Shown here: piece by piece, positions 2,509 to 14,993 of the stretch
Layout of the letters: every line of letters starts with the position of its first letter
Position numbering within the stretch: the first letter of the stretch is position 1
From: a virus
IMG/VR virus record: IMGVR_UViG_3300027985_000052
Span: 1-42,565 of that record
Direction: 5' to 3' (one strand)
Length of the DNA: 42,565 bases
The notes under the pieces: generated by a model
The model's input: the letters and a program-made list of their open reading frames with translations, nothing else
What the model was told of the DNA's origin: nothing
The model's database searches: none
Program-made: the position numbers and the translations under genes

Positions 2509-3645
2509 TCAAAATGGAATGTCGTCTTCGAACGTATCAACGTCGGTTGGCCCTTCGGTTTGTGTGTGACGTTCGACACCCATTACTATTCCGCGCACGT
2601 TATCGCCGAAGAAGAAAGCTTTATTAGAAGATTCTTCAAAATGCACTTTTTCAAATGCTTTTTCGACCATAAGCAAATATTTAGAGTTAAAACCCATACC
2701 TTCGGGCAACCCTTCAATTATATACGTTGACGCTTCGTTTTCAAGTTCGTTCGACGCAAGCTTTCCTTCTTCAAAGTAAACAACGCCGTTTCGTGTAAAC
2801 GCTTGAATCGACTTGACAGCTTGAAAGAATTCTTCAGGCACGGGCCAAGGGTTCAAACCTTCGCATTCAAACAACGGCGCATAATTCGGGAAGCGTTCGC
2901 CGTAAAGTTGGGTTTTAATAAAGCTGTCGTCGTCGAACCAGAAGGTTGCAGACGGGCCAGAATAGCCAAAGCGGGCAAGGGGTTTACCGGCCTTCACAAT
3001 GGCCGCGACAGCCGCTTTAGGCACCAACAGGCCGGGCGGAAGGTCTATGCCGTGCCAGTATTCCGCCAAGACGTGCCCGTTGGTCGCCACGGCGCTTCCA
3101 GACTGAAGCAAAACCGACGCATACGCGGCATTTGGTGCCCCTTCGGTCGCCAGCGGTGCCAGCATGGCGAACGCGTCTTTAATGCGGTCGTCTATTTCGG
3201 CGCAAGGTTCGTCGGGCGCACTTATCGAAAGTTGGTCGAAAGGTACGCAAGGAACTAGCGCGCGAAACGCCCCGGATACAACAGAAATCGAAGTTTGCGA
3301 CAGTTGCGAAATTGAAAGGTCGTCGCCCGTCTTTTTCAAGGCTTCTTCAAATTGCGTTGTTTGTGGGCAAGCGGTCAAGTCTTCTTCGACCTTTGTTGCG
3401 ATTGTCATAACTCCGTCAGAAGCCGCCGCCCAATTGCCGGTTATCATGCAAAATTGCTGTTGCGTTGTCCCGGTCTTCTTTTGAACAGGCTTCAAGAACT
3501 TCAACGCGTTCAACAAAGACTTCGCCGGGGTAACTGGCGATTGCGCCTTTCGGCGGGCGCGGTGTTTCTTCTTTGGCGGTTCCGGGGCCGCTTCAACTTT
3601 ATCTTCGTCTTCTGGAATCGGAATGTCTTTGTCTAAAGTTGTCAT
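2509..3645 (-). CDS. Sliding-clamp-like (DnaN-type) protein with an SSB-like acidic C-terminal tip
   Basis: 378 residues from the ATG at 3645, which has a GGTGA Shine-Dalgarno and sits 4 bp after the helicase stop. An alternative start at 3699 would add 18 residues inside the helicase gene. After a charged, basic N-terminal tail (about residues 1-40) the protein resembles a bacterial beta clamp: a region with TTQQQFCMITGNWAAASDGV, a middle domain with SAVATNGHVLAEYW and LVPKAAVAAIV, then YGERFPNYAPLF, like the clamp signature for the third domain. The extreme C-terminus is FEDDIPF, matching the acidic tip by which bacterial SSB recruits partners, where a clamp would normally end differently. 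The clamp call rests on pattern and position beside the polymerase; the tail is read directly from the sequence. Confidence 0.7.
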   Translation of the reverse strand: MTTLDKDIPIPEDEDKVEAAPEPPKKKHRARRKAQSPVTPAKSLLNALKFLKPVQKKTGTTQQQFCMITGNWAAASDGVMTIATKVEEDLTACPQTTQFEEALKKTGDDLSISQLSQTSISVVSGAFRALVPCVPFDQLSISAPDEPCAEIDDRIKDAFAMLAPLATEGAPNAAYASVLLQSGSAVATNGHVLAEYWHGIDLPPGLLVPKAAVAAIVKAGKPLARFGYSGPSATFWFDDDSFIKTQLYGERFPNYAPLFECEGLNPWPVPEEFFQAVKSIQAFTRNGVVYFEEGKLASNELENEASTYIIEGLPEGMGFNSKYLLMVEKAFEKVHFEESSNKAFFFGDNVRGIVMGVERHTQTEGPTDVDTFEDDIPF

Positions 3646-3649
3646 ATTG

Positions 3650-5302
3650 TCACCATTCAGCCGATAAAACTTCGGGATACTTCTTGTTAGTCCAAACACG
3701 AACCCGCGACGGAACCCTTAATTCGGATACATGGCGCAAGGCTTCGTTCGTTGTTGCTGGCGGTTCGGCATGGTGCCGCTGTCGCCACCAGTCGCGGGCG
3801 CGCTTGCCCGGCAAACCGTTATGTTCAAGACAAACCCATTCGTTGAACATTTGAAAGCCGCAAAAATACGAAACTTTAATTGAAGGCGGCGAAACAAGTA
3901 TTCCGTCGCTGTTCCGTTTTTCGTGCAAGTTATATATTACCTTTTGAACGTCGAAATATTCAACAACCGGCGCGTCGCTTCTAAGAAGTTCGTCGGTTCC
4001 AGCCGCCGCAAATATCTTCGTTTCAAAACTGAATTCGCTTCCGCAACTTATGCAATGCCGCGCCGAAGCATGGTTGTAAACGCCGCAAACTTCGCAAATA
4101 CGAACCGGCGCGTCGCCCCCGCCTTTGCCCGGCTTGCGCGGTTTAATCGGGTCGTTGATAGGCCCAAGGCGTCGCGTGTTACCGGCGAAGTCAAGAACAA
4201 GGCAATTTTGTTTGCCAGTGTCGGGCGAAGGTCGGGTTCCGCGCCCTAGCATTTGAACCCACAAGCCCGGCGACATTGTAGGGCGTAGCATTCCGATAAG
4301 GTCAATCGGCGGGTGGTCGAAGCCGGTTGTCAACTTGTTGTTGTTGACCAAGGCCCGAAGTTCGCCGGATTTAAACGCCTTAATACGGGCGTCGTTTTCA
4401 GCCGCTTTAAGCTTGGAATGCGACGCGGCGGCGGGTATTCCGAAGCTTTGAAGCATGGCCGCGACGTGTTCGCTATTTTCGACGCCTGAAGCGAAGATTA
4501 ACCAGCTTTGCCGGTCGTATCCAAGTTCGACCATTTCTTTAACAGCGTCGTAAGTAATTTCGTCGGCAACTTCGTTAAGTTGTTTGCCGTTGAAATCACC
4601 CGCCGCCATTTTTACGTTAGAAGTGTCGATTTCAACTTGTGTACGTTTAGGAATAAGCGGGGAAAGGTAGCCTTCAAAGATAAGACGATTGAACGCTTCG
4701 ACGCCGGTTATGTCGTAACAAAGGTCGGTAAACAACCCGTCGTCGTCTGTAATCATACCTTGCTTTAAACGGTACGGCGTAGCGGTTAGGCCAATAACTT
4801 TCAAATGCGGGTTAATCTTCAAAAGTTCGGCGATAACGTATTGATACATTGTATCTTCGTTCGGGCCTAACAAATGGCATTCGTCAATAATAACAAGGTC
4901 GCGCCAACCAAAATGTTTTAAATGCGGCGGCGTTCCGTCATCTTGTTCAAGACTTTTTTGAATAGCTTTTGAAACAGATTGAACGCCACCGAATACGATT
5001 GGAAGAATCATATCGCGCGACTTTAACCCAGCTGAATAAATCCCAAGCGGGGCCGTCGGCCAAACTGACAACAACTTTTCGGCGTTTTGTTCAATCAATT
5101 CTTTAACGTGCGTCAACATCATTATTCGCTGATTCGGCCAATAGCCGAAGACGCGCCGAACAAAGTTCGCAATTACAATCGACTTGCCCGTTCCGGTCGG
5201 CATGGCAACAACAGGGTTTCCCGTGCCGCCACTTTGGAAATAATCGAATATCGAAAATTCCGCTTCGTCTTGATACCAGCGATTCGCGTAAATACTAGAC
5301 AT
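3650..5302 (-). CDS. SF2 DEAD/DEAH-type helicase with a zinc knuckle
   Basis: ATP-dependent helicase of 550 residues. Walker A is MPTGTGKS (residues 34-41), Walker B DECH (140-143), motif III TATP (173-176) and motif VI QMLGRGTRPS (350-359). A four-cysteine knuckle follows (C403, C406, C417, C420). A C-terminal extension of about 110 residues with several tryptophans is a common companion of phage helicases of this type. Its ATG at 5302 overlaps the end of the methyltransferase gene by 8 bp, and the clamp-like gene starts 4 bp after its stop. That packing makes it part of the replication operon; duplex unwinding at forks or during recombination is inferred. Confidence 0.93.
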   Translation of the reverse strand: MSSIYANRWYQDEAEFSIFDYFQSGGTGNPVVAMPTGTGKSIVIANFVRRVFGYWPNQRIMMLTHVKELIEQNAEKLLSVWPTAPLGIYSAGLKSRDMILPIVFGGVQSVSKAIQKSLEQDDGTPPHLKHFGWRDLVIIDECHLLGPNEDTMYQYVIAELLKINPHLKVIGLTATPYRLKQGMITDDDGLFTDLCYDITGVEAFNRLIFEGYLSPLIPKRTQVEIDTSNVKMAAGDFNGKQLNEVADEITYDAVKEMVELGYDRQSWLIFASGVENSEHVAAMLQSFGIPAAASHSKLKAAENDARIKAFKSGELRALVNNNKLTTGFDHPPIDLIGMLRPTMSPGLWVQMLGRGTRPSPDTGKQNCLVLDFAGNTRRLGPINDPIKPRKPGKGGGDAPVRICEVCGVYNHASARHCISCGSEFSFETKIFAAAGTDELLRSDAPVVEYFDVQKVIYNLHEKRNSDGILVSPPSIKVSYFCGFQMFNEWVCLEHNGLPGKRARDWWRQRHHAEPPATTNEALRHVSELRVPSRVRVWTNKKYPEVLSAEW

Positions 5303-6033: not shown

Positions 6034-7122
6034 TCAAATATTTTGCGTTATCGCCTTGTATTGTGGGCAAGCCCGCGGCACGAAATTGCGCGGAATTATG
6101 CCGTTGTGTTTCGAACAAAACCATTCGCCATTTTCGGCGGGGCTTGCGAAAGAACAGCTTCGGCAATTGACTTCGGGTTGTTCGTTCTTATGACAAATCC
6201 CGCTGAAATGGCAAAACTTGCATTTAAAAAACGTTGGGCTTTCCGAAAGCTTGGGCGGCGCTTTATCCGAAGTAATAATTTGTTCGGCCTTATGCTTCAT
6301 TTGTTCGCCTAAGTTATGGTCAAGCGGCACAACTTCAATATGAAGGTCGTCGTCGTTTTTGCAAATGTTCAGATACACAACGAAGCGAAACTTGTATTCG
6401 TTGCCATACGTTGACGTTTGCGCGAAGTGTTGCGGCTTGCTTACCGGCATTCCGTCTTTTTGTAAATCCGAAAAACCCTTTCCGGTTCCGTTCGTCTTAA
6501 ATTCAAGAAGAACAGGTTCGTCGATTCCGTACCGTTCGGGAAGTCGGGCGATACCGTCAAGCGACCCGCCAAAGTGCCCGTTTACGGCTGAAATTCGGTA
6601 TTGGGGAAATTCCAAACCGTCGGCGCGTGCGCGTTCTTTGTGCTTTTTGAAATACGGGTTATCTTCAAAGATTGGTTCGCAACAAGGGTCGCCGGGTTCT
6701 TCACCGGCCTTCAAAAGAATATAACTATCACTTTCGGCATGAAACCAAAGCGTATTATTCGTGAAATCGTCGGCCCAAATTTTAAAGCCGATACCTTCAA
6801 GCCATTCAATAAAACGGAATTCTTCGCGGTGCCCACGATTAAAAAGGCGCTGTTGCCGCCCTGTCGTTTTTTCGTGCTTGCACCAACGGAAGATATACCA
6901 AAGCTTGCGTTTGCATTCGTCGCCGATAAGACTTGCGCCCAAGTGCCAGCGGTGCCCGCCGTCGTAAGTGTCAACGCAATATTGGTCAACGTCTTCAAGA
7001 ATGCGTTTCGCAAGTGCCTTCGGAACCCCGGTGTCGCTAAGGTTTACGCTTTGCTTTCCGGCGTTTAATGTGGCTTGCGACTTTTCGTCGTTGGTCTTTT
7101 TCGCGCTTGTGTCTTTTTTCAT
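6034..7122 (-). CDS. PD-(D/E)XK-family nuclease with cysteine cluster
   Basis: 362 residues. A RecB/Cas4-like nuclease core is visible: D189 in GGSLDG followed by E207-F-K209 in VLLEFKT. A cysteine-rich C-terminus (C301, C304, C310, C320, C323) could hold zinc or an iron-sulphur cluster, as in Cas4-like enzymes. The likely role is DNA end processing in replication or recombination, together with the DUF669 protein and the Sak4-like ATPase upstream. The ATG at 7122 has a good AAGGTGAAG Shine-Dalgarno, so the gene truly overlaps the end of the previous gene by 86 bp in another frame. Both proteins are lysine-rich in that overlap. Confidence 0.82.
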   Translation of the reverse strand: MKKDTSAKKTNDEKSQATLNAGKQSVNLSDTGVPKALAKRILEDVDQYCVDTYDGGHRWHLGASLIGDECKRKLWYIFRWCKHEKTTGRQQRLFNRGHREEFRFIEWLEGIGFKIWADDFTNNTLWFHAESDSYILLKAGEEPGDPCCEPIFEDNPYFKKHKERARADGLEFPQYRISAVNGHFGGSLDGIARLPERYGIDEPVLLEFKTNGTGKGFSDLQKDGMPVSKPQHFAQTSTYGNEYKFRFVVYLNICKNDDDLHIEVVPLDHNLGEQMKHKAEQIITSDKAPPKLSESPTFFKCKFCHFSGICHKNEQPEVNCRSCSFASPAENGEWFCSKHNGIIPRNFVPRACPQYKAITQNI

Positions 7123-7618: not shown

Positions 7619-8383
7619 TTACTGTTGACCGCCCCAAGGAGCGCCGCCAGCCGGTGCGCCGCCCTGTTGCCAGCCGCCGCCGTTGTTGGCCGGTTGCTGG
7701 TTGTTAGCCGGGGCGTTGTTAGCGGGCGCGCCGCCGTTATTACCCCAAGCCGGGGCACCGCCGCCGTTCTGGCCGTTGTTGGCGGGCTGTTGCTGGTTGC
7801 CGCCCTGATTACCGCCCCAAGCTGGCGCGCCGCCTTGCGGGGCTTGCTGGCCGTTGTTGGCCGGTGCCTGTTGCTGACCGCCCCAACCGCCGCCGTTTTG
7901 CGCTGGCTGTTGCTGGCCTTGCGGTGCGCCGCCCTGTTGGCCTTGCGGTTGTGCCGGGGCGTTACCCTGTCCCGCTTGGCCGGGTTCGTTCCCGTTAATA
8001 TCGAAGACTTTCTTGACTTCGGTATATTGCGGGTCGTTCTTTTGCGGGCCGACTTCAATTACGAAGGGGATTCCGTGCAACTGGCCCGAATCCTGAACGT
8101 TAAACACGCCAACGACGTGACAAACGGCGGAAAGCTGGCGGTGCGCAATTTCAACCGTCTGTTGGTTGGAATGGTACAGGTTCAGACGATAAGCGCCGGT
8201 AACGCCCTGTTGCGGGCCGTCAATTACCTTCAAATTAAGCTGAAGGTATCCGCCGTCGTTAGCCTTGTTGGCTTTGACTTCGGAAGATTCCACAACGACA
8301 GGGTGACGACCAATCGGAAGACCGCCGACGCCTTGGGTTGGGTCGAATTGTTGTGCGTTGAAGGGTTGGATAAGTTGTGCCAT
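7619..8383 (-). CDS. DUF669-family ssDNA-binding-type protein with a long Q/G/N/A tail
   Basis: 254 residues. Residues 1 to about 135 fit DUF669: FNAQQFDPTQGVGGLPIGRHPVVV is the opening signature, followed by GGYLQLNLKVIDGPQQG, LNLYHSNQQTVEIAHRQLSAVCHVVGV and a LHGIPFVIEV segment. These proteins usually sit beside Sak4-like ATPases, as here, and are thought to act in ssDNA binding or recombination. Residues from about 135 to the end are a low-complexity tail rich in Q, G, N, A and P with scattered tryptophans. It resembles the disordered linker of an SSB, but the tail ends PWGGQQ and lacks the acidic tip. The ATG at 8383 follows an AAAAGGTGAAA Shine-Dalgarno. Confidence 0.82.
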   Translation of the reverse strand: MAQLIQPFNAQQFDPTQGVGGLPIGRHPVVVESSEVKANKANDGGYLQLNLKVIDGPQQGVTGAYRLNLYHSNQQTVEIAHRQLSAVCHVVGVFNVQDSGQLHGIPFVIEVGPQKNDPQYTEVKKVFDINGNEPGQAGQGNAPAQPQGQQGGAPQGQQQPAQNGGGWGGQQQAPANNGQQAPQGGAPAWGGNQGGNQQQPANNGQNGGGAPAWGNNGGAPANNAPANNQQPANNGGGWQQGGAPAGGAPWGGQQ

Positions 8384-8445: not shown

Positions 8446-9126
8446 TTACGACATACACTTTCGGAACAAGTCGCCCAAAATAGGCGGTTCAAATTCCGAA
8501 AGCCGACCCGAACGGTCGCGGGCCATAATGCCGAAAGTCGGAAGCGCGCGAATTGCAATGACAGGTTTTGCCATGCCGGGAATATTCGCTTCGCCAATAT
8601 GAAGAATTTCGTCGTAAAGGTGCGGAACCTTAACGTTCAAATCTTGGCCGGGGAAATACGGCGCTTTAGTTGAAACGCCGTTTTCGTCGCGTGTCGCCTG
8701 TTTGCCAATTAAATAAACGTGTTTGTTCGGCAAGTAATAAAGACCGTTGACCAAATCCATAACTCGCCGGGACATTTCGCCATAAGCTTTACGCCCGTCT
8801 TTGTTCCGCTTCAATTCTTGCGTAAGAAAGATTTCGGCAAGTTGCGAAATTGAATCAATGCCGACCGTATCAAAATTTTTCGCTTCGTTCGACTTGAACA
8901 GCCAAGTAAAAAAATCGTCGATACGTTCGGGCGTGTACGCGTCCCAAGCCGGAAGGTCGTTGGCGTCCCGCATTGACAACATGCCGGGTTCGACGACGCA
9001 AAGCACGGGGCGCGGTGCGGTCTTAATCATTGGCGTTTTACCGACGCCCGGCCCGCCATAGGCCAAGCACTTTACGCCGAATTGTTGGGCCAGTTGTGAC
9101 GCTGGCCGAAGTTGGTTCATTTGCAT
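8446..9126 (-). CDS. Sak4-like RecA-fold ATPase (phage recombinase type)
   Basis: 226 residues. Walker A is GGPGVGKT (24-31), and a Walker B-like VGIDS centres on D91. The layout, a P-loop followed by KNFDTVGIDSISQLAE and a later HVYLIGKQATRDENG segment, is that of the AAA_24/Sak4 group of phage ATPases linked to single-strand annealing and recombination. It lies directly upstream of DUF669, a standard pairing. The ATG at 9126 is 6-7 bases after AAGGGGA and overlaps the previous gene by 10 bp; a second ATG two codons later is also possible. Confidence 0.83.
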   Translation of the reverse strand: MQMNQLRPASQLAQQFGVKCLAYGGPGVGKTPMIKTAPRPVLCVVEPGMLSMRDANDLPAWDAYTPERIDDFFTWLFKSNEAKNFDTVGIDSISQLAEIFLTQELKRNKDGRKAYGEMSRRVMDLVNGLYYLPNKHVYLIGKQATRDENGVSTKAPYFPGQDLNVKVPHLYDEILHIGEANIPGMAKPVIAIRALPTFGIMARDRSGRLSEFEPPILGDLFRKCMS

Positions 9127-9410
9127 TCGCGTTCCCCTTTTTCGTTAAAGGCGCGGTCGGGGTGCGAAAGTTCGCACATATACCCAAGCTTTGTAAATCC
9201 GAAACCGTCGGGAAGTTCAAACCCGTCGATATAAACGTTCGGGTGCGAAGTTCCGGTTCGGTTCGCCCTGATATATCCGCCGCCGTGTTGAATGTAAATA
9301 AGGCCGTTCCGCTTGTAAACTTTGGCTTGCTTAAATACGCCTTTGCTTCGCGTAATGGCAACGGCACCTTCTATCAAGTGGAACAACCCCGGTTTGATTG
9401 AATTTGACAT
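9117..9410 (-). CDS. Hypothetical protein, 97 aa
   Basis: I do not recognise this protein. I place the start at the ATG at 9410 (MSNSIKPG), preceded by GGGGTTGAAA, rather than the in-frame TTG at 9416. It has a glycine/aromatic middle (GLIYIQHGGGYIRANR) and a YIDGFELPDGFGFTKLGY stretch suggesting a small beta-rich fold. It overlaps the Sak4-like gene by 10 bp, so the two are probably translationally coupled. A copy of the dispersed 10-mer TTGTGGGCAA lies about 30 bp upstream, in the gap before this gene. Confidence 0.65.
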   Translation of the reverse strand: MSNSIKPGLFHLIEGAVAITRSKGVFKQAKVYKRNGLIYIQHGGGYIRANRTGTSHPNVYIDGFELPDGFGFTKLGYMCELSHPDRAFNEKGERECK

Positions 9411-9461
9411 TTTCAACCCCTTCGCATGGCCCCGGCTGTTGTGGGCAACCCGGCAAGCCGC

Positions 9462-10683: not shown

Positions 10684-10881
10684 ATGACCTTGTATGAAAA
10701 GACGCGCGAATTGCTACGTTCGCGCCCGGCGACTATGACCTTCGCCAGTATCGAAGACGCGACAGGAATTAAAGAATCTTGGCTTCGTATGTTCAACCGG
10801 GGGAAGATTGAAAACCCTTCGGTTAACACTGTTCAAGCACTATATGAACACTTGTCAGGTACGAAGTTAAGGGTCGAATAA
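10684..10881 (+). CDS. Small helix-turn-helix DNA-binding protein (Cro/XRE-like)
   Basis: 65 residues with one HTH: MTFASIEDATGIKESWLRMFNRGKIENPSVNTVQALYEHL has the helix-turn-recognition-helix spacing of XRE/Cro-type proteins. It is the first gene of the rightward operon, right next to the divergent promoter pair, so it is the natural candidate regulator of the early region. The next gene starts on the last base of its stop codon (TAATG), implying coupled translation. No lysogeny genes accompany it, so a lysogenic switch role is unlikely. Confidence 0.78.
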   Translation: MTLYEKTRELLRSRPATMTFASIEDATGIKESWLRMFNRGKIENPSVNTVQALYEHLSGTKLRVE

Positions 10882-13211
10882 TGAACTATAACAATATACC
10901 GCAAGAAATGCGGATTTTCCCGCAATGGGTTGTTTGGCGATTTGAAGACACGGACAGCGCCAAGCCGACGAAAGTTCCGTATTCAGCGAATAACGGGCGA
11001 CTTGCCAGCGTTAGCGACCCGAACACTTGGGCCACGTTTGACCAAGCTTGTCACGCGGCTTCAACTTCAAATTGGTATGACGGAATTGGTTTCGTGTTGA
11101 CTGAAGCCGACCCGTTCGCGTTTATCGACCTTGACGACACAAAGGGCGACCAAACCGCACTTGACCGCCAAATAAAGATATACAACGAATTTGACAGCTT
11201 CGCCGAACGTTCGCCTTCAGGTTCGGGCCTTCACATTATCGTCAAAGGAAACTTGCCGTCGGGTCGTCGTCGTTCGTTTATTGAAATTTATTCGTCGGGT
11301 CGTTATATGACAATGACCGGCGACATTTACCGCGACGCACCTATTAAGGAACAAAACGAACTTTTAAACGTTCTTTGGTCGCAAATGGGTTCGGGTAATC
11401 AAGCCGCCGCCGTTTACGCCGGTCTTGCCGAAGCTAAAGAAAGCGACGAAGTTGTTATTCAGCGCGCAACCGACGCGGCCAACGGTGAAAAATTCGCCGA
11501 CTTGTACGCCGGGCGCTGGCAAGATTATTACCCGTCGCAATCTGAAGCCGACTTTGCCCTTGTCGATATTATCGCGTTTTACACCCAAAACCGGGCGCAA
11601 ATTTCCCGCTTATTCCGGGCGTCGGGTTTAGGCCGGCGTGACAAAGCGAAGCGCGACGATTACGTTAATTATATGTTGAACAAGTGCTTTGACCGTATGC
11701 TTCCGCCGGTTGATATTGACGGCTTGCGAAACCAATTAAACGAAGCAATTGAAGCGAAGCAAAAGAAAGACCTTCAAGAAGCCAAAAGTCTTCAAAACCG
11801 TATCGAACCGGAACAAGGGCAAGCCCCGAAAACGGAAGACTTGAAGCCGTCAAAAGACGTTTACAGCGTCCCGCCGGGGTTGGTCGGTGAAATCGCGCAA
11901 TTCATATACGCCCAAGCGCCGCGACCTGTTCCCGAAATATCCCTTGCCGGCGCCCTTGGCATGATTGCGGGTATTGTGGGAAGGGCTTACAACATATCGG
12001 GCACGGGCCTTAATCAATACACGCTTCTTCTTGCGCCAACTGGTACAGGTAAAGAAGCGATTGCTTCAGGTATCGACAAGCTTTTTGCGTCGGTTATTCG
12101 AACCGTTCCCGCGTCAACTGACTTCATAGGCCCGGCGGAAATTGCTTCGTCGCAAGCTGTCATTAAGTATATGTCAAAAGGCCCAACAAGCTTCGTTTCA
12201 TTGGTTGGCGAATTTGGTATTTATCTTCAGCAAATGGCAAGCCACAACGCACCGCCGCACCTTATAGGGCTTCGCCGTTTCTTGCTTGACGCTTACAATA
12301 AATCAGGTGAAGGCAAAGTTCTTCGCCCTTCTATTTATTCGGACAAAGACAAGAACACAAGCGCGGTTCTTGCCCCGGCTTTTTCGTTACTTGGCGAATC
12401 AACCCCCGAAAAGTTTTACGAAGGTCTTCACGAAGGTTTGATTTCTGAAGGCTTGCTTCCGCGCTTTACAATTATTGAATACCACGGCGACCGCCCGCCT
12501 TACAATCCGGCCCATTTGCACGCACAACCAAGCTTTGAACTTATCGACAGGCTTTCGACGTTGTGTGCCCATGCTTTAATGTTGAACAGCCAGCACAAAG
12601 CGATTAACGTTCAAATGTCAACGGAAGCAAAACGCATGTTCGACGAATTTGACCGTCATTGCGATTTGCAAATTAACGGAAGCGACAAAGAAGTTCGCCG
12701 TCACCTTTGGAACCGGGCGCATATTAAGGCAATGAAGCTTGCCGCGCTTGTTGCTGTTGGTTGCAATCCTTACGACCCGACTATTTCGCTTGACGTTGCG
12801 ACTTGGGCGACGAACATTGTTGTTGCTGATATTCGAAACTTACTTGACCGTTTCAACGCTGGCGAAATTGGCGTTGACAATGACGAAACGAAACAGCTTG
12901 CGAAGGTAATTGCGACGGTGAAAGAATTCGTCGTTTCGCCTTGGCCTGAAGTTTCGAAATACACGGGCGAAGGTATGTCAAACCTTCATTCAAACCGAAT
13001 TGTTCCTTACGCCTTCGTTCAACGAAAGCTTGCCGCTGTTGCCGTCTTCCGCAAAGACCGCATAGGGTCAAGCGGGGCAATCAAGCGCGCGCTGACGACG
13101 TTGACCGAACGCGGCGACCTTCAGGAAGTCAGCCGGGCCACACTGGCGAAGGATTATGGCACAAGCGCCCGCGCCTTTATGATTTCAAACCCCCGCGTCT
13201 TCGAACTATAA
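10881..13211 (+). CDS. Primase-helicase (archaeo-eukaryotic primase domain plus DUF3987-like ATPase)
   Basis: 776 residues with three parts. Residues 1 to about 165 are a primase-polymerase domain: F81-I-D-L-D85-D gives the catalytic acidic pair, SPSGSGLHI (111-119) the conserved Ser-His element and SGRYMTMTGD (139-148) the third motif. Residues from about 330 to 690 form an ATPase with Walker A APTGTGK (385-391), like the DUF3987 class. Residues about 705-776 look like a winged helix (NRIVPYAFVQRKL...VFRK...AIKRALTTLTERGDLQEV), a segment that recurs at the end of the 14361-14993 protein. It would lay primers and unwind DNA at phage forks. It is translationally coupled to the HTH gene. Confidence 0.87.
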   Translation: MNYNNIPQEMRIFPQWVVWRFEDTDSAKPTKVPYSANNGRLASVSDPNTWATFDQACHAASTSNWYDGIGFVLTEADPFAFIDLDDTKGDQTALDRQIKIYNEFDSFAERSPSGSGLHIIVKGNLPSGRRRSFIEIYSSGRYMTMTGDIYRDAPIKEQNELLNVLWSQMGSGNQAAAVYAGLAEAKESDEVVIQRATDAANGEKFADLYAGRWQDYYPSQSEADFALVDIIAFYTQNRAQISRLFRASGLGRRDKAKRDDYVNYMLNKCFDRMLPPVDIDGLRNQLNEAIEAKQKKDLQEAKSLQNRIEPEQGQAPKTEDLKPSKDVYSVPPGLVGEIAQFIYAQAPRPVPEISLAGALGMIAGIVGRAYNISGTGLNQYTLLLAPTGTGKEAIASGIDKLFASVIRTVPASTDFIGPAEIASSQAVIKYMSKGPTSFVSLVGEFGIYLQQMASHNAPPHLIGLRRFLLDAYNKSGEGKVLRPSIYSDKDKNTSAVLAPAFSLLGESTPEKFYEGLHEGLISEGLLPRFTIIEYHGDRPPYNPAHLHAQPSFELIDRLSTLCAHALMLNSQHKAINVQMSTEAKRMFDEFDRHCDLQINGSDKEVRRHLWNRAHIKAMKLAALVAVGCNPYDPTISLDVATWATNIVVADIRNLLDRFNAGEIGVDNDETKQLAKVIATVKEFVVSPWPEVSKYTGEGMSNLHSNRIVPYAFVQRKLAAVAVFRKDRIGSSGAIKRALTTLTERGDLQEVSRATLAKDYGTSARAFMISNPRVFEL

Positions 13212-14360: not shown

Positions 14361-14993
14361 ATGGAAACTGAAAACGAATTTGAATACGTCGAACCGTCGA
14401 ACATTGGCGAATATTACTTGAAGCACGTCGAAGCAATGAAGCCGACAGAAAAGCAACCTGAAGGCAAGTCGTTTGCAATCCAAAGCGACGGTTATTCGCT
14501 TTCACTATTGCGCGACCTTGCAGACGCGGCCAACGTGGGAAAGAAAGCAATTGTTGTTGTCGAATGGCCTGAAGTGTTCGAAGTGCAACGCTTGCCAGAC
14601 GGAAGCAACACAAAGCTTTTTTACCGCTATTCAACAGGCAACAAACGCGGCAACCGGGTTGAACTTAGCGAATGCGAAGAAAGCATTGAAGAAATTAAAC
14701 GTATTTTGAAAGAATATATTGAAGACGATTTTGAAGAATGTCTTAAATACGACAAGAATATAAACGCCGAAGCTAAAGCCGAAAAGATTGTTAGTTACGC
14801 ATACGTTCAACGTCGTTGTCTTGGCCTTGCGGCTTTTAGAAAAGCCCCCGAAGGTGCGTCAAAGCGTTTCAAGTCGGCAATCGAAGAACTTGTTGAAAGC
14901 GGCTATTTAAAAGCGGTGCCTAAAACTGTTGCGTCTGGCGCTTTTGAGACAAACGGCAAGCTTTATCAAATTGTGGGCAATCAAGGGGAATAG
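14361..14993 (+). CDS. Protein with C-terminal winged-helix-like module shared with the primase-helicase
   Basis: 210 residues. The N-terminal 140 residues are acidic and unfamiliar to me, with a beta-rich stretch (KKAIVVVEWPEVFEVQRL). Residues about 141-210 (EKIVSYAYVQRRC...AAFRK...KRFKSAIEELVESGYLKAV) line up with residues 705-776 of the primase-helicase (NRIVPYAFVQRKL...AVFRK...AIKRALTTLTERGDLQEV), so the module seems duplicated within this genome. A role at the origin or as partner or decoy of the primase is plausible, since it lies next to the candidate origin. First gene behind the promoter at 14292-14320, with an AAAGGTGATGAG leader before the ATG. Confidence 0.72.
   Translation: METENEFEYVEPSNIGEYYLKHVEAMKPTEKQPEGKSFAIQSDGYSLSLLRDLADAANVGKKAIVVVEWPEVFEVQRLPDGSNTKLFYRYSTGNKRGNRVELSECEESIEEIKRILKEYIEDDFEECLKYDKNINAEAKAEKIVSYAYVQRRCLGLAAFRKAPEGASKRFKSAIEELVESGYLKAVPKTVASGAFETNGKLYQIVGNQGE

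Follow-up and report, generated by a model that had tools for sequence, protein, structure and literature searches.

The gene located at positions 2509–3645 on the minus strand of the window, i.e., the whole 42,565-nucleotide stretch of viral DNA analyzed here (IMG/VR record IMGVR_UViG_3300027985_000052), encodes a DnaN-type sliding clamp that carries, on a flexible tail, a C-terminal tip resembling that of the bacterial single-strand DNA-binding protein (SSB). Comparison with related phages makes it fairly likely that this ending belongs to a movable SSB tip, which is kept off the SSB, occurs about once per genome, and shifts among the clamp, a RadD-like helicase, and a small four-cysteine adaptor, serving recruitment at a single point of the replication machinery.

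The open reading frame begins with ATG, codes for 378 residues with the C-terminus ..TDVDTFEDDIPF (TFEDDIPF), and is terminated by TGA. The Pfam search returned no match for the protein, and the PHROG search assigned residues 40–358 to phrog_947, annotated as "DNA polymerase processivity factor" (E = 2.5e-66). A profile constructed from 78 relatives of the clamp matched DnaN in the PDB with E = 6e-6, and a 12-sequence profile did so with E = 3.7e-5. The tertiary structure modeled with AlphaFold2 from a 78-row alignment showed a mean pLDDT of 93, with residues 40–358 predicted confidently and residues 1–30 and 361–378 with low confidence; the single-sequence prediction (pLDDT 37) was set aside. 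With Foldseek, each of the 50 best PDB matches of the model was a bacterial beta clamp, with E values between 2.6e-19 and 1.3e-17 and TM scores of 0.68–0.74 to DnaN of E. coli, Pseudomonas, Caulobacter, and Stenotrophomonas. Neither an OB fold nor a TIGR00621 or DUF669 domain was detected in the protein by Pfam and fold comparison. The original prediction had described the protein as clamp-like from its sequence and had named an unrelated fold or an OB fold as the outcomes that would speak against it; the fold found is that of DnaN.

The three-domain core (residues 40–358; 2572–3528) is followed by a flexible C-terminal tether modeled with low confidence (residues 359–378; 2512–2571), which ends in the tip FEDDIPF (residues 372–378; 2512–2532) directly before the stop codon. 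It is preceded by an N-terminal extension, also of low confidence (residues 1–39; 3529–3645), that contains a short (I/V)P(I/L)P motif and the basic stretch KKKHRARRK. In the Septimatrevirus-like clamps as well as in the window (3600–3645), this extension shows a conserved N-terminal motif, (D/E)(N/K)xx(I/V)P(I/L)P, after which an acidic and then a basic stretch occur. Compared with bacterial DnaN, the window clamp is ∼15–18% identical and contains in addition the basic N-terminal extension and the tip-bearing tether, and no PF13177 clamp-loader gene was found with it. Clamp loaders of this type (DnaX/delta-prime) were not detected in 23 phages of the group, while the same search was positive in 13 of 14 control genomes. 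In Pseudomonas phage PSV3 (NC_069755.1 and OP712479.1; hits H74 and H75), the clamp homologue is present as three pieces over three annotated genes, a sequence arrangement that suggests frameshifts or an insertion.

The C-terminal peptide of bacterial SSB (SSB-Ct; MDFDDDIPF in E. coli) likewise consists of acidic residues followed by IPF at the end of a flexible tail (PMC10238739). The window clamp shows all the sequence features of an SSB-Ct, namely, acidic residues, I-P-F, a free C-terminal carboxylate, and a flexible tail, so that the SSB-type ending pointed out in the original prediction is indeed present. It differs from bacterial SSB in its carrier, which here is a clamp, or in other phages a helicase or a four-cysteine protein, instead of an OB-fold ssDNA binder. 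The number of tips per assembly would differ as well: an SSB tetramer has four, and a clamp ring would probably have two, provided that it forms a dimer as DnaN does.

Homologues of the clamp were found in 294 phage records by tblastn. The tip is kept on Septimatrevirus-like clamps, Rhodobacter Titanvirus clamps, and several deeper groups, with endings such as EDDIPF, SDDIPF, DDEIPF, and DDDVPF, so the DDIPF-type end, whose retention in homologues had been proposed as a check, is a shared feature of these relatives. Among 27 non-redundant clamp carriers, D or E was present at position −6 in 20, D at −5 in 24, and D or E at −4, I or V at −3, and P at −2 in all 27, while the terminal F was present in 26 and replaced by Y in one. 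The tipped helicases and small proteins converge on this clamp-type ending, which is always placed at the extreme C-terminus. The linkers of tipped clamps are divergent in sequence and extend 15–93 residues past the last RG of the core, whereas tipless clamps usually stop ∼7 residues past it and nearly all end near the position of residue 359 of the window clamp; hence, carrying the tip seems to be the purpose of the clamp tail. Outside the Septimatrevirus/Titanvirus-like clade, most families of phrog_947 clamps are, unlike the window clamp, without a clamp tip. The replicative phrog_947 clamps of Septimatrevirus, Lokivirus, and Queuovirinae are members of the window clamp's family and share most of its replication module; they are annotated as clamps, and no mention of a tip was found for them.

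The specificity of the ending was evaluated at the level of both protein and DNA. In the window, the tip pattern was not found in any other frame of 40 aa or more. A looser DNA pattern, [DE][ILVM]PF-stop, was matched in 36 of 47 genomes, with 39 matches in total and nearly always one per genome, while the reversed pattern matched in none of the 47. Surplus matches in genomes G008 and G032 and in Rhizobium RHph_Y55 (12650) lay in frames of only 19–28 codons and were considered chance occurrences. A match in Langgrundblatt2 (12182) was rejected as it ended in TGG and not in a stop codon, and the match in Axy18 corresponded to a small protein spanning the record junction.

The clamp gene is part of a replication–recombination module on the minus strand. 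In the 5′ to 3′ direction, the module comprises a DUF7173 protein, a frame without a family (9117–9416), a Sak4-like annealing ATPase (8446–9126; phrog_124), the DUF669 SSB (7619–8383), a DUF3268 zinc-finger protein, a Cas4-domain exonuclease (6034–7122; phrog_1990), a D12 methyltransferase, a RadD-like SF2 helicase (3650–5302), the clamp, and, directly downstream of it, DNA polymerase B (469–2496; phrog_1252). The helicase, which matches E. coli RadD structures with E = 1.3e-56, is tipless here and tipped in other phages of the group. It is separated from the start of the clamp gene by 4 bases, which leaves no room in the window for the small four-cysteine gene found at this place in relatives. 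The polymerase ends in QTESLFF (472–492) and those of relatives in ..QISFF or ..TASLFF, endings that resemble the known beta-clamp-binding motif and may function as such, which would indirectly fit a clamp that encircles DNA and makes the polymerase processive. Elsewhere in the window, a 210-aa protein (14361–14993) resembles the phage primase, the product of 10881–13211, in the C-terminal part of the latter (phrog_29311, phrog_3022).

The DUF669 protein was identified as a single-strand DNA-binding protein of phrog_6015 (E = 4e-87), and no match to the TIGR00621 SSB was obtained anywhere in the window. Its disordered tail, rich in G, Q, P, A, and N, has the C-terminus GGAPAGGAPWGGQQ, ending in APWGGQQ. 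Thus, the statement of the original prediction that the likely ssDNA binder lacks an acidic tip was found to be correct, and it extends to the group, as the strict tip was present in 0 of 148 SSBs in related loci. Of 103 DUF669 SSB tails of the group, 98 had a tryptophan among their last eight residues and only six an acidic residue. These tails have a conserved end of their own, P-x-W-(G/A)-(Q/R/K), seen in outgroup phages too, which, judging from its sequence, may be a separate docking tip. The DUF669 SSB of phage HK620, which belongs to the same SSB family and likewise adjoins a Sak4, has its own tip, NDYPPF, required for the binding and stimulation of Sak4 (PMC5928155). In contrast to HK620, the SSBs of the window's group have lost or never had an acidic tip and carry the P-x-W-G-Q-R-like end instead. 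The existence of a functional tip on the HK620 SSB makes a separation of the tip from the SSB in this group plausible.

To locate the tip across related phages, about 240 loci were added by three scans of viral contigs, and the strict pattern was scored over 250 related loci. It was found in 149 frames, comprising 63 small four-cysteine proteins, 43 clamps, 41 RadD-like SF2 helicases, and 2 Cas4 proteins, the last from two loci of one contig. Besides the SSBs, it was absent from all 173 PolBs, 118 Sak4s, and 39,930 other frames of these loci. With relaxed tip definitions, 133 of the 148 non-redundant informative modules contained one tip, 8 contained two, and 7 contained none. The small four-cysteine protein (∼65–110 aa), encoded between the helicase and clamp genes, contains an invariant CxxC..C..PP..C pattern, ends in (D/E)IPF in many phages, and matches phrog_23504 of unknown function; it is also weakly similar to the cysteine-rich C-terminal end of the module's Cas4 exonuclease. 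In the representative encoded at L049:6637–6849 and about 90 relatives, the SSB-type tip is usual. In locus L072, the Cas4-domain exonuclease (locus positions 3556–4635) has a C-terminal extension ending in LDSDIPF, and the small protein of the same phage ends in FDIPF. The RadD-like helicase is the carrier in the Queuovirinae PaMx25 and 9g, where it ends in DLDDDIPF and DFDDDIPF, respectively.

Similar carriers were observed beyond the group. Seven further DUF669 phages taken as an outgroup gave three pattern matches, all on the helicase (Moraxella Mcat26, PLDDMPF; Roseobacter CRP-901, SFEEIPF) or the four-cysteine protein (Salmonella SE13, FDYDVPF). A first scan of bacterial genomes revealed no relative, and a second identified one metagenome-assembled gammaproteobacterial contig (L264), in which the small protein ends in KIPF. 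The rule of one tip per module is strong, though not absolute. Five modules in which the helicase end was covered had no tip (Acinetobacter phage Loki, L027, L029, L093, and L097), and whole-record searches of Loki (L004), which has the full module, and of L093 also revealed none; the tip is therefore not strictly essential. Deviant endings were observed as well, i.e., DDISV in L040, DDEIQF in L042, and DDNFPPF on the clamps of L023 and L036, the last being a variant similar to the functional NDYPPF ending of HK620.

A strong tip on a second carrier usually goes along with loss or decay of the tip of the small protein. In L064, L079, and L085, the clamp tip is strong and the small protein, though present, has lost its tip (..FELKG, ..GTSGT, and ..GKASN); in L057 and L061, the small protein has only a weak tip (CFLIPF and VMKIPF) and another carrier is tipped; and in L245, L257, and L261, the helicase tip is strong and the small protein ends in EEPPF or GKAPF. 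On a tree of clamp cores, the small protein was the commonest carrier and its tip state was widespread; the clamp tip changed at least 8 times, the helicase tip 4 times, and all states together 17 times. A Pagel-type test, based on a quick tree and relaxed tip definitions, favored correlated over independent evolution for the clamp against the other carriers (LRT 13.6, p = 0.009) and for the small protein against the others (LRT 27.3, p = 2e-5). The independent-pairs test, the strictest applied to the tree, gave 4 opposite and 0 same pairs (p = 0.125), which is below significance. The exclusivity of the carriers is thus well supported by counts, with a modest number of independent events. An origin of the clamp tip by fusion of the small four-cysteine gene was considered and rejected, as that gene lies upstream of the clamp, the tip is C-terminal, and the clamp tails contain no cysteine domain. 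The original prediction had further proposed that docking may have been moved from the SSB to the clamp. The separation of the tip from the SSB agrees with this. The usual carriers, however, number three, of which the clamp is just one, and the clamp tip arose several times, so that a direct transfer from SSB to clamp is a hypothesis only.

The pockets that receive the SSB-Ct contact the side chain of the terminal Phe, its carboxylate, and an upstream Asp (PMC10238739). As the Phe, the carboxylate, and the acidic residues are all kept at the extreme C-terminus, the phage tip should fit such pockets. The best explanation, which we regard as probable, is that the tip, separate from the phage SSB and present once per replication module, recruits SSB-Ct receptor proteins, probably those of the host. 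The C-terminus of the clamp would then act as a flexible tether providing one SSB-type docking peptide per subunit. As a rule, such a peptide would be carried once per replication–recombination module, by the small four-cysteine protein, the RadD-like helicase, or, in the clade of the window, the clamp. On entering the pocket for the C-terminal Phe and acidic residues of SSB, it would bring one or a few proteins, probably of the host, to the phage fork. A tipless DUF669 coat would not advertise the phage ssDNA to all host partners of SSB, nucleases included; recruitment would be uncoupled from ssDNA coating, and a single tip on a fork protein would call in what is needed. For a phage that encodes its own clamp and in which no clamp loader was detected, an attractive partner would be chi, a subunit of the host clamp loader, although this idea alone does not explain the tips on small proteins or helicases in most relatives.

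The tip could instead dock a phage-encoded protein, such as the Sak4 annealase or the RadD-like helicase, and so wire the phage's own module, a reading to which we give a minor but appreciable chance. The dependence of Sak4 on the NDYPPF tip in HK620 (PMC5928155) speaks for this, and the adjoining helicase is a relative of E. coli RadD, a proven SSB-Ct binder (PMC10238739). The phage helicases have mostly retained the hydrophobic positions of the RadD pocket as well as a basic residue (K/R) at position 145 of RadD. However, they do not conserve Arg21 and Arg49 of RadD, on which SSB binding depends in E. coli, the pocket residues show no difference between carrier classes, the helicase is itself tipped in many phages, and the tipless Loki retains helicase, Sak4, and SSB.

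It is rather unlikely that the tip is an inhibitor which, as an SSB-Ct mimic, blocks exonuclease I, RecQ, RecO, PriA, and the like in the host and thereby protects phage DNA or slows the host. Many repair proteins of the host share the receptor pocket (PMC10238739), and titration would be a suitable role for a small carrier that stands alone; but the tip resides on fork and recombination machinery (the clamp, the helicase, and once Cas4), and replication proteins would be odd decoy vehicles. Its presence about once per genome on fork machinery fits targeted recruitment better than mass titration. It appears highly improbable that the clamp ending arose by chance or was inherited and has no docking function. 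Short linear motifs can arise randomly, and degraded endings occur in a few relatives (DDISV, DDEIQF), yet the tip is conserved despite divergent linkers and was acquired repeatedly and independently, and its absence from background frames and from the reversed-pattern control strongly disfavors chance.

In the open-access literature, with subscription journals mostly outside its scope, no description was found of an SSB tip on a sliding clamp, phage helicase, or small protein, nor of a pattern of one tip per genome. The clamp, the SSB-Ct, and the DUF669 SSB are each already known.

The C-terminal tip of SSB is a hub contact of bacterial DNA metabolism and is normally assumed to sit on the ssDNA-binding protein. 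This group of phages keeps the tip off the SSB and moves it among three fork proteins, with a number close to one per genome, an arrangement in which the coating of ssDNA would be separated from the recruitment of partners. With such naturally occurring constructs, it can be asked for which single partner a replisome depends on the SSB tip. The finding also bears on how phages with a clamp and no loader use the host loader, as well as on how phage ssDNA may avoid SSB-guided nucleases, and it provides a candidate function for the unannotated family phrog_23504.
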